From Brevundimonas sp. AAP58 (GTDB lineage: Bacteria > Pseudomonadota > Alphaproteobacteria > Caulobacterales > Caulobacteraceae): DNA of 64,000 nt. Where the stretch lies: contig NZ_LJHU01000018.1 of NCBI RefSeq assembly GCF_001295975.1, forward strand, positions 1 through 64,000. The letters run 5' to 3'. Position 1 is the first letter of the stretch. Every line of letters starts with the position of its first letter. The notes under the pieces were generated by a model. That model had not been told where the DNA came from and did not search any database. It was given only the letters and a program-made list of their open reading frames with translations. Shown one piece after another: positions 38,806 to 43,632 of the stretch. A program made the position numbers and the translations under genes.

Positions 38806-38918
38806 GCCCGATCGTTCCTCTCTCGTTGCGGCCACGCTAGGCCCAGAACGGTAAACCGGCGATGAAATTCGCTGTGTCGTGCAGGGCCGGTCTCGTGGCT
38901 GTTGGGGAAAAACAGTCT

Positions 38919-39797
38919 ATGGCGAGGACGATGACCGCGGCCCCCCTGACCGATCCGTCCGACAGCCCGCTGCCGTTCGTGGTGCAGCCCGCGATCGGCG
39001 CGCCCGGTCCGATGGTCTTCGCCTCGCCGCATTCCGGCGGCTGGACGCCCCAGGACATGGGGCACAGCCCCGCACTGTCGCCCATGACGCTGCGCAGCGC
39101 CGAGGATGTCGGCGTCGACCGTCTGGTCGCGGCAGGGCCACGCCACGGGGCTCCCCTGATCGCCGCGCGGGTGTCGCGAGCCTATATCGACCTGAACCGC
39201 GCGCCGGAGGAGATGGATGCGATCCTCATCGACGGGGTCGAGGGCGCCACCTCCGCCAAGGTGGCGGCGGGTTACGGGGTCATCCCGCGCCGGGCCGGCG
39301 ATGGCACCGCGCTCTATGGTCGGCGGCTGTCGGCGGAGGAGGCCCTGGTCCGTCTCGCGCGGGTCCACGCGCCTTACCATGCCGCGCTGGAGGCGCTGAT
39401 GATCGAAAGCCGTGCGCGGCATGGTCTCGCCCTTCTGATCGACTGGCACTCCATGCCCTCACGGGCGACGGGCGCGGGAAAGCGGGGAGCGCGCGGGGTC
39501 GATATCGTTCTCGGCGACCGGCACGGCGCGGCGACGCGCGCGGGTGTGACGCGACGGATCAGGGTCCTGTTCGAGGCCGAGGGCCTGACAGTCGCGCTCA
39601 ACACCCCCTATGCCGGGGGCTATGCCACCCAGCGCTGGGGCCGGCCGGACGAAGGGTTCCAGGCGGTACAGGTCGAGATCAACCGCGCCCTCTATCTGGA
39701 TGAGGCGACGCTGGAGCCGTCGGCGGACCACGACCGGTTCCAGGGTCTGCTGACGCGGGTGATCGAAGCCCTGTCGCGCGAGACCTGGCCGCGCTGA
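38919..39797 (+). CDS. N-formylglutamate amidohydrolase-family protein
   Basis: 292 residues from ATG 38919; ATG 38931 (MTAAPLTDPSD) is the other reasonable start, and the frame from 38862 lacks a ribosome-binding site. Family features: VFASPHSGGWTP, VDRLVAAGPRHGAPLIAARVSRAYIDLNR, LLIDWHSMPSRA, and EGLTVALNTPYAGGYATQRWG...VQVEINRALYLDE. The enzyme releases formate and glutamate from N-formylglutamate in histidine breakdown, but no hut gene is adjacent. Convergent with a candidate small RNA just downstream. Confidence 0.92.
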   Translation: MARTMTAAPLTDPSDSPLPFVVQPAIGAPGPMVFASPHSGGWTPQDMGHSPALSPMTLRSAEDVGVDRLVAAGPRHGAPLIAARVSRAYIDLNRAPEEMDAILIDGVEGATSAKVAAGYGVIPRRAGDGTALYGRRLSAEEALVRLARVHAPYHAALEALMIESRARHGLALLIDWHSMPSRATGAGKRGARGVDIVLGDRHGAATRAGVTRRIRVLFEAEGLTVALNTPYAGGYATQRWGRPDEGFQAVQVEINRALYLDEATLEPSADHDRFQGLLTRVIEALSRETWPR

Positions 39798-39802
39798 GCC
39801 CG

Positions 39803-39829
39803 AAAAAAAGCCGCGCCCGAGGGCGCGGC
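39803..39829 (-). terminator. Intrinsic terminator of the candidate sRNA
   Basis: Nine-base-pair GC stem (39810-39818 with 39821-39829) followed on the minus strand by seven T (39803-39809). The strong T-run is on the minus strand only, so the terminator serves minus-strand transcription rather than the amidohydrolase gene. Confidence 0.85.
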
Positions 39830-39885
39830 ATAAAAGTCTATAGGGAGGAAACGCCCAGGAAGGGCAAGACGCCCGGAGGCGTCGG
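39803..39885 (-). ncRNA. Candidate small RNA with anti-Shine-Dalgarno loop
   Basis: Minus strand. Promoter TTGACG (39914-39919), 17 bases, TAACTT (39891-39896), putting the start near 39884. The RNA would fold as hairpin 1 GACGCC-TCCG-GGCGTC (39868-39883), hairpin 2 GCCC-TTCCT-GGGC (39853-39865), an unpaired UUCCUCCCUA stretch (39841-39850), and a nine-base-pair terminator stem GCCGCGCCC/GGGCGCGGC (39810-39829) with seven U. No reading frame uses this region. The single-stranded CCUCCC is complementary to Shine-Dalgarno sequences, as in several alphaproteobacterial trans-acting sRNAs. Confidence 0.7.
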
Positions 39886-39890
39886 TTCTC

Positions 39891-39919
39891 AAGTTAGGTT
39901 GCAATGCACAATACGTCAA
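39891..39919 (-). promoter_or_regulatory. Promoter of the candidate sRNA
   Basis: TTGACG (39914-39919), 17-base spacer and TAACTT (39891-39896) on the minus strand. It is one of the better sigma70-like pairs in the window and has no protein gene to serve other than the small RNA. Confidence 0.6.
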
Positions 39920-41502: not shown

Positions 41503-43632
41503 TCACCAGATCCGGACGCGCTGATCCGGCGACAGGTAATAGCGCTGGCCCGGCTGAACGTCGAAGGCCTCGTACCAGGCGTCGACGTTGCGGACCGGCC
41601 CGATCACGCGGAACTCCGCCGGGCTGTGCGGACCCGTGGCGACCTGGTTCCTCAGGAAGTCATCGCGGCCCTTGGACTGCCACACCTGGGCCCAGCCCAG
41701 GAAGAACCGCTGCTCGCCGGTGAAGCCGTCCAGCACCGGGGCCTCCTGGCCGTTCAGCGACAGCTGATAGGCCTCCAGACCCACCGCCACGCCCGCGGCG
41801 TCACCGATGTTCTCGCCCATCGACAGGGCGCCCTGGACGAAATAGCCCGGGAGGACCTCATAGGTGTCGTACTGGGCACCCAGACGCGCCGTCAGGGCCT
41901 CGAAGTTGGCGCGGTCCTCCGGCGTCCACCAGCTGCGCAATACGCCGTCGCCGTCAGACTTGGAGCCCTGGTCGTCGAAGCCGTGGCCGATCTCGTGGCC
42001 GATGACCCCGCCGATGGCACCATAGTTCACCGCCGGATCGGCGTTCGGATCGAAGAACGGCGGCTGCAGGATGGCGGCCGGGAAGACGATCTCGTTGTTG
42101 GTGGAGTTGTAATAGGCGTTCACCGTCTGGGGCGTCATGCCCCACTCGGCCTTGTCGACGGGCTCGTTGAGGCGGGCCAGCTGGTACTCCCAGCGGAAGC
42201 GTCCGGCGCGCTCGGCATTGCCGAACAGGTCGTCAGGGCGGATCTCCAGCGCGGAGTAGTCCCGCCACTGCTCCGGATATCCGATCTTGACCGTGAACTT
42301 GGCCAGTTTCTCCTGGGCGGCCGCCTTGGTCTCGGCACTCATCCAGTCATAGGTCTCGATGCGAAGCGCCAGCGCCCGGCGCAGATTGGCGACCAGCTCT
42401 TCCATCTGGGCCTTGGACTCGGCCGGGAAGTATTCGGCGACGTACTGGCGGCCCAGGGCTTCGCCGAGCGCGCCTTCCGTGAAGCCGATCGCGCGCTTGT
42501 CGCGGGGACGCTGCTCGGGCTGGCCCTGCAGATCGCGCTGGCGGAAGGCCCACTGGGCGTCGGCGAACCGGGCCGACAGGCGCGAGGCGGCCTGATCGGT
42601 GGTGTGGAACGCCTGCCAGGCCCGCAGCGTCTCGATCGGCGTTTCCGCATAGATGGCGGCGATCTGTGGCATGGCCGTGTTCTGGCGCACGATCAGGCGG
42701 GGGATGTCGCCCAGACGGGCCGCGCCGAAATAGCCGTTCCAGTCGAAGCCCGGCGCGTCAGCGGCCAGCTGCTGGATGGTGTACTCGTTGTAGGTCCGGT
42801 CGCGGTTGCGGTTCTCGGCCGGCGTCCAGTGCGCCTGGGCGATGCGCGTCTCGAGATCCAGGATGCGCTGGGCGTTTCCGGCGGGGTCGTCCCAGCCGAT
42901 CATTTCCAGCATCCGGGCCAGGTAGGCCAGATAGAGCTCCTTCTTGTCGGCATAGAGCGGCGACAGATAGAAATCGCGGTTGGGCATGCCCAGGCCCGAC
43001 TGACCGGCGGAGACGACATAGCGGTCCGGCTGCTTCTGGTCCGTCGAGATGCCGGTGGCGAAGAAGGAGCCGCCCAGCGCCCCGATGGTCCGGCCCATGT
43101 AGGCCGCCATGGCTTCATGGCTGTCGATCGCCCGGATGGCCGCCAGATAGGGTTGCAGGGGCTGGTCATCCAGCGCCTCGATGCGGGCCACGTCCATGTA
43201 GCTGCGATAGGCGTCGGCGATCTTCTGCTCATCCGAGCCCGGGGCCAGGTCCGTCCGCGCCAGAAGAGCGGTGATCATCGCCTCCAGCCGGTTGTCCGAC
43301 AGATCGCGCAGAAGGGCGAAGGCGCCGTAGTTCGAACGGTCCGCCGGAATGGTAAGCTGGTCCAGCGCCGCGCCATTCGCGTAGCGCATGAAGTTGTCGC
43401 CCGGCGCCATCGACAGGTCCATGCCCGCAGGATCGAAGCCCCAGGTCCCGAAGCGCGGCGCCTCGACGCCTGCCCAGCCCGACGCTCCGATGCTGGCGGC
43501 CGGCGTCTGGAAGATCGACCAGATCGTGCAGGCCTCATCCAGGCAGGCGTGATCGTGGTCGGGACCATCGGCGAAGGCGGCGGAGGGGATCAGGAAGGCG
43601 GCCGCAGCGGCGCCGATCAGCAGTCTTTTCAT
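41503..43632 (-). CDS. pepO: Secreted M13-family (neprilysin-like, PepO) metallopeptidase
   Basis: 709 residues. Signal peptide MKRLLIGAAAAAFLIPSAAFA. The zinc site is VIGHEIGHGFDDQG (HExxH) with the third ligand in GENIGDAAGVAVGLEAY (ExxxD) about 60 residues later, and the substrate-binding NAYYN segment precedes it (NAYYNSTNNEIVFPAAILQPPFFD). It ends with the typical VDAWYEAFDVQPGQRYYLSPDQRVRIW. Acts in the periplasm or outside the cell on oligopeptides. M13 peptidases are expanded in Caulobacterales. Convergent with ppa. Confidence 0.95.
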   Translation of the reverse strand: MKRLLIGAAAAAFLIPSAAFADGPDHDHACLDEACTIWSIFQTPAASIGASGWAGVEAPRFGTWGFDPAGMDLSMAPGDNFMRYANGAALDQLTIPADRSNYGAFALLRDLSDNRLEAMITALLARTDLAPGSDEQKIADAYRSYMDVARIEALDDQPLQPYLAAIRAIDSHEAMAAYMGRTIGALGGSFFATGISTDQKQPDRYVVSAGQSGLGMPNRDFYLSPLYADKKELYLAYLARMLEMIGWDDPAGNAQRILDLETRIAQAHWTPAENRNRDRTYNEYTIQQLAADAPGFDWNGYFGAARLGDIPRLIVRQNTAMPQIAAIYAETPIETLRAWQAFHTTDQAASRLSARFADAQWAFRQRDLQGQPEQRPRDKRAIGFTEGALGEALGRQYVAEYFPAESKAQMEELVANLRRALALRIETYDWMSAETKAAAQEKLAKFTVKIGYPEQWRDYSALEIRPDDLFGNAERAGRFRWEYQLARLNEPVDKAEWGMTPQTVNAYYNSTNNEIVFPAAILQPPFFDPNADPAVNYGAIGGVIGHEIGHGFDDQGSKSDGDGVLRSWWTPEDRANFEALTARLGAQYDTYEVLPGYFVQGALSMGENIGDAAGVAVGLEAYQLSLNGQEAPVLDGFTGEQRFFLGWAQVWQSKGRDDFLRNQVATGPHSPAEFRVIGPVRNVDAWYEAFDVQPGQRYYLSPDQRVRIW

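Follow-up and report, generated by a model that had tools for sequence, protein, structure and literature searches.

An αR8/MmgR/SisA-type small RNA of Brevundimonas with a conserved putative PhaR/AniA promoter box and a candidate target site in the hppA leader

A predicted small RNA (sRNA) with an unpaired CCUCCC, encoded on the minus strand of a 64,000-nucleotide stretch of DNA from Brevundimonas sp. AAP58 (contig NZ_LJHU01000018.1; the whole stretch is hereafter called the window), raises the question of what this RNA is, which mRNAs it could act on and what might control its level. The initial annotation, made from the letters alone, did not assign it to a named family, and this was wrong. 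The sRNA is genuine, yet its family has already been described, and orthologs from the same order have been studied experimentally.

Family assignment and locus

The minus strand at 39795-39872 matches the Rfam family RF00519 (suhB/MmgR, αR8) with 60.6 bits against a cut-off of 41 and covers model positions 1-77 of 77, with an E value of 5e-10 for a search of the whole window. RF00519 is named suhB or MmgR, the 'Makes More Granules Regulator', and is called SisA in Caulobacter (PMC12559287). In a feature-level comparison, the RNA resembles Caulobacter crescentus SisA (CCNA_R0014, αR8), which belongs to the same order and lies downstream of a gene for N-formylglutamate amidohydrolase (FGase). 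Here, the FGase gene occupies 38862..39797 on the plus strand (Pfam FGase 1e-66); it is convergent with the sRNA and identifies the place as the αR8 locus. The αR8 RNA adjoins the FGase gene in most species, and the Caulobacter copy at this place is SisA (PMC12559287), the closest studied ortholog. The FGase gene is convergent with the sRNA in all 93 pattern-matched Brevundimonas-type sequences with enough flank and in 19/19 loci from other families of Caulobacterales; in the three sequences without an FGase match, the available stretch ends within ~200 bases of the RNA. The closest FGase neighbour protein among the fetched loci, from B. bacteroides, is 87.5% identical.

The family is widespread. 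With a threshold of E <= 0.001, it is present in 55/61 relatives and in at least 81 of the 142 genomes drawn across the class, the latter count being a lower bound because the filters were strict. When the named genome collection was scanned for exact occurrences of the conserved middle part of the RNA, 73 contigs were obtained; the labels are Brevundimonas or unclassified Caulobacteraceae/Alphaproteobacteria in nearly all cases, and one contig belongs to a Caulobacter vibrioides strain. The genome under study has one clear RF00519 copy at the threshold used, unlike C. crescentus with its four siblings, SisA-D, and the sponge CrfA. Additional αR8-like copies with the core TTTCCTCCC and no detected FGase neighbour were seen in some Brevundimonas genomes (L162, L163, and L164), and they are likely siblings like SisB-D; L163 and L164 have an unusual terminator, GGCCTCGTCGCC...GCGACGGGGC, in common.

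On a rival reading, the RNA is a different, unnamed CCUCC-type sRNA (SorX-, BjrC1505- or anti-hemB-like) whose likeness to αR8 consists of the anti-Shine-Dalgarno motif alone; in its favour, several sRNA families match the same stretch weakly. SorX and BjrC1505 are indeed similar in being short RNAs with a C/U-rich stretch and a terminator, but they score 17.4-17.6 bits against cut-offs of 46.6-50, so that the RNA is not a member of either. The rival families altogether reach 17-23 bits, far below their cut-offs, whereas RF00519 stands 20 bits above its own, and the FGase locus, the core, and the promoter box described below all fit αR8. This alternative, to which we give almost no weight, is in practice already refuted by the family score and the locus. 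The matches to anti-hemB, Betaproteobacteria toxic sRNA, ncS025, SorX, BjrC1505, and GcvB were all at chance level, under the respective cut-offs, and were set aside.

Anatomy, fold and conservation of the RNA

The sRNA is placed at 39803..39884 on the minus strand on the basis of the RF00519 score and its fold. Its 5′ end near 39884 is predicted from the alignment of the core with SisA numbering (pairing region G33-C45, mutation C40G), which would give a length of 82 nt; the ~82 nt of the initial annotation agrees with this provided that the inferred start holds. MmgR of S. meliloti is 77 nt long (PMC9049629), compared with ~82 nt here on the same assumption about the start. The RNA opens with a 5′ hairpin, GACGCC-UCCG-GGCGUC (39868..39883), which is indicated by compensatory changes and has its 5′ arm beyond the limits of the Rfam model. 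It is followed by a weak internal hairpin, GCCC-UUCCU-GGGC (39853..39865), seen in the fold, the alignment, and the covariation, and then by the single-stranded core UUUCCUCCCU (39842..39851), the putative seed and anti-Shine-Dalgarno sequence. Between the second hairpin and the terminator, the minus strand carries the unpaired GUUUCCUCCCUAUAG, and the open stretch ahead of the terminator reads GUUUCCUCCCUAUAGACUUUUAU. The Rho-independent terminator (39829-39803) has a stem of eight G-C pairs, GCCGCGCC-CUCG-GGCGCGGC, with a loop of four and then U7, and is found by the terminator scan, the fold, and the covariation. A core UUUCCUCCCU after a weak hairpin and a Rho-independent terminator are also features of SisA, for which hppA is a target in Caulobacter (PMC12559287) and a candidate here.

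The fold is considerably more stable than expected by composition: an 83-nt segment has an MFE of -40.6 kcal/mol (z = -4.6), and 0/200 dinucleotide shuffles were equally stable. The core at 39851-39842, downstream of the weak hairpin, is unpaired in both the MFE and the centroid fold. Conservation was followed in a 38-sequence alignment of 19 genus members and 19 order-level members from other families of Caulobacterales. The first nine core bases, GTTTCCTCCC, are without variation in 38/38 sequences, while the flanking stems drift. The invariance of the 19 genus members at the middle hairpin and the core is by construction, because they were picked with an exact pattern covering both, and the covariance model, through which the 19 order-level members were detected, also favours the core.

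The stems provide evidence of a different kind. Changes on both sides occur in 12/18 pairs of the 38-sequence alignment, with a covariation score of 0.265 compared with 0.109 in shuffles (none of 500 equalled it) and no more than 0.121 with the partners slid. In the order-level alignment, 99.3% of the terminator cells are paired and six of its eight pairs show double changes; the 5′ hairpin shows changes on both sides in 5/6 pairs and, within the genus, compensatory C-G to U-A changes in the two pairs on the loop side. The initial annotation had offered a lack of conservation of hairpins and loop in related genomes as its own refutation; instead, the family is found in the great majority of relatives, with an invariant core and covarying stems.

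Promoter and putative PhaR/AniA box

Upstream of the predicted start, the minus strand has a -35 element, TTGACG (39914..39919), and a -10-like element, TAACTT (39891..39896), separated by 17 bp. Both are conserved in distinct Brevundimonas-type sequences, the former as TTGAC or a variant and the latter as TA[AG]NTT, at the same 17-bp spacing. A strict sigma70 scan of the sRNA region by E. coli rules reported no promoter because the -10 element fits TATAAT at only 3/6 positions. The element being weak by these rules, its conservation across the genus was taken as the promoter evidence, and the sigma70-like promoter proposed earlier is present, with a weak -10. Together with the elements and the fold, this genus-wide conservation bears out the anatomy given in the initial annotation, in which a promoter, two hairpins, an unpaired CCUCCC, and a U-tailed terminator had all been placed where we find them on the minus strand.

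These observations also bear on the view that the hairpin and U-tract merely end another transcription unit, as its terminator or 3′ UTR, and that no separate sRNA exists. A gene does lie just beyond on the opposite strand, strong terminators are expected at gene ends, and the poor -10 by the E. coli consensus would favour such a view. However, the U-tract works for the minus strand and the adjoining gene is on the plus strand; the upstream -35/-10 pair with its 17-bp spacing and the box in between is conserved; no variation is seen in the core between the hairpins; and the Caulobacter orthologs have been seen on Northern blots (PMC12559287). A terminator without an sRNA is thus extremely improbable, and a separate αR8 RNA with its own promoter is the preferred reading.

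The promoter spacer holds TTGTGCATTGCAA (39899..39911, minus strand), a putative PhaR/AniA box of the form TGC-N3-GCA with the heptamer TTGTGCA. Both TTGTGC and TGC-N3-GCA are present in 74/74 distinct upstream sequences, and the pattern TTGTGCNNNGCAA has only two sites genome-wide, the second one within a coding frame. The TTGTGCA heptamer, activation by NtrC, and a TGC-N3-GCA dyad at mmgR were reportedly described by Ceizel Borella et al. (2018, Microbiology). Sinorhizobium meliloti MmgR (RF00519, suhB) falls under the same covariance model and has a PhaR/AniA box in its promoter: in EMSA, PhaR/AniA binds efficiently to CAATTGTGCACCGCAGCATTA, which lies immediately ahead of the start site (PMC12542648). 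PhaR/AniA is a PHB-sensing repressor, the depletion of which leads to overproduction of MmgR in S. meliloti (PMC12542648). By eye, GTATTGTGCATTGCAACCTAA at the present locus fits 20/21 IUPAC positions of the published motif WNWD2NYGCRNYGCRNH2WNW, missing only the first, as does the S. meliloti mmgR site.

The genome encodes PhaR (PF07879), Hfq (PF17209), and a phasin. Upstream of the phasin gene (L114), TATTGTGCGCTGCACAA stands just before TTGACC and closely resembles the phaP1 box of S. meliloti. No clean TGC-N3-GCA box was found in the upstream region of the PhaR gene (L111, contig C137 of the same genome) or upstream of a second, weak phasin-like gene. The conserved box, the PhaR and phasin genes, and the binding in S. 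meliloti allow the well-founded inference that PhaR controls the sRNA via its promoter box. TGCNNNGCA-like dyads, two of them in several cases, were also observed upstream of the sRNA in other families of Caulobacterales (L146-L150, L153, and L156), which suggests that PhaR may control it in these families too.

hppA as a candidate target and a possible link with carbon storage

Caulobacter SisA is an Hfq-bound repressor that base-pairs through the core (PMC12559287). It represses reporters of hppA and of TonB-dependent receptors, with core pairing proven or predicted; the pairing of C. crescentus SisA was proven for CCNA_03574 by compensatory mutations (PMC12559287). The hppA leader in the genome under study reads ACUAGGUAUGGAAACGCCAAUGACG, in which GGAAACGCC is a perfect 9-nt complement of GGCGUUUCC in the sRNA and ends one base before the hppA AUG. 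In most genus members, the leader has the order AGGG-N3-GGAAACGCC-AUG, so that the Shine-Dalgarno-like AGGG is available for additional pairing with the CCCU of the core. GGAAACG is present in 25/31 Brevundimonas hppA loci and GGAAACGCC in 20/31, making this the best-kept part of the leader; in most species GGAAACG is non-coding because the frame runs into the TGA of ATGA. The site is missing from two hppA loci (L126 and L129), where the leader is a different one. Of 974 crude ORF starts, gathered from the window together with the fetched loci, only one matches the sRNA over at least 9 nt.

The duplex energy of the sRNA with hppA is unexceptional, an equally good value being reached by 3.6% of random 65-nt stretches from the window. 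Among the arguments for pairing with hppA, only the placement and the conservation of the site count, and the energy does not. On this basis, we consider it rather likely that the leader stretch is a conserved sRNA target site. The conserved stretch could also serve translation initiation itself.

Our overall explanation, which we hold with high confidence, is that of an αR8 ortholog in which transcription, Hfq binding, repression, and PhaR control would proceed as in the orthologs from which they are taken over. The RNA would be transcribed from its own housekeeping-type promoter, end at the Rho-independent terminator, and presumably be held by Hfq. The unpaired core, often together with the GGCG just before it, would then pair through GGCGUUUCCUCCCU with the ribosome-binding and start regions of several mRNAs and block their translation, with hppA as the best candidate here. 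PhaR, sensing PHB granules, would probably bind the TGC-N3-GCA box in the spacer and so tie the sRNA level to carbon storage. A trans-acting sRNA whose unpaired CCUCCC occludes ribosome-binding sites had already been proposed for this locus, and αR8 RNAs act so in Caulobacter (PMC12559287). This bare-sequence reading was thus probably right about the mechanism of an apparently unnamed RNA that can now be placed in a widespread, partly characterised family.

The analysis establishes the family membership and the conservation of the structure, core, locus, promoter box, and hppA complementarity. Only the conserved PhaR box and hppA site of Brevundimonas go beyond what is known of the family, and each connects findings that are already published. 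The action of PhaR on mmgR was published for Sinorhizobium and that of SisA on hppA for Caulobacter; accordingly, the best evidence on hppA comes from Caulobacterales and that on PHB from Sinorhizobium, and what is new is the combination in one genus. The conserved box and site yield two direct predictions about a possible link between carbon storage and pyrophosphate energy in the order. Extended further, PhaR would set the sRNA level via the spacer box and the sRNA would shut the hppA start site; we tentatively suggest, as a conjecture that may well fail, that such a PhaR-αR8-hppA circuit operates throughout Caulobacterales, linking the membrane proton-pumping pyrophosphatase to the state of PHB storage. 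A possibility that we consider unlikely but not negligible is that the RNA is an αR8 sRNA for which the hppA and PhaR links fail in this organism, its real targets being others, e.g., TonB-dependent receptors or phasins. Chance often yields an equal pairing energy with hppA, and Caulobacter SisA has many targets, several of which are receptors (PMC12559287). However, hppA was chosen in advance as a validated target from a related genus, and no part of the leader is better kept than the non-coding GGAAACG; the occurrence of the box in every one of the 74 promoters speaks against failure of the PhaR link.

A search for perfect complements AGGGAGGAAA of the core gave four sites genome-wide, one of which is the sRNA gene itself, with no clear CrfA-like RNA among them. 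The three others, considered as targets or sponges and rejected, include no convincing ribosome-binding site: one lies in a hairpin after clpX, one within or opposite a relA/spoT-like gene, and one antisense to a yqgE-like gene at its 5′ end, with the genes named by eye. The hairpin after clpX, CTTCCTCCCTCCCCGTGCCGGGGAGGGAGGAAAG, is strong (L105; contig C37 of the same genome, ~42715-42758) and has a core-like sequence in one arm and the perfect core complement in the other; it is perhaps due to chance, or else a sponge-like or terminator element. Elsewhere in the window, the minus strand at 29657-29714 matches the Rfam terC RNA motif (RF03067) with 59.2 bits against a cut-off of 39.9 and is a cis-regulatory candidate.
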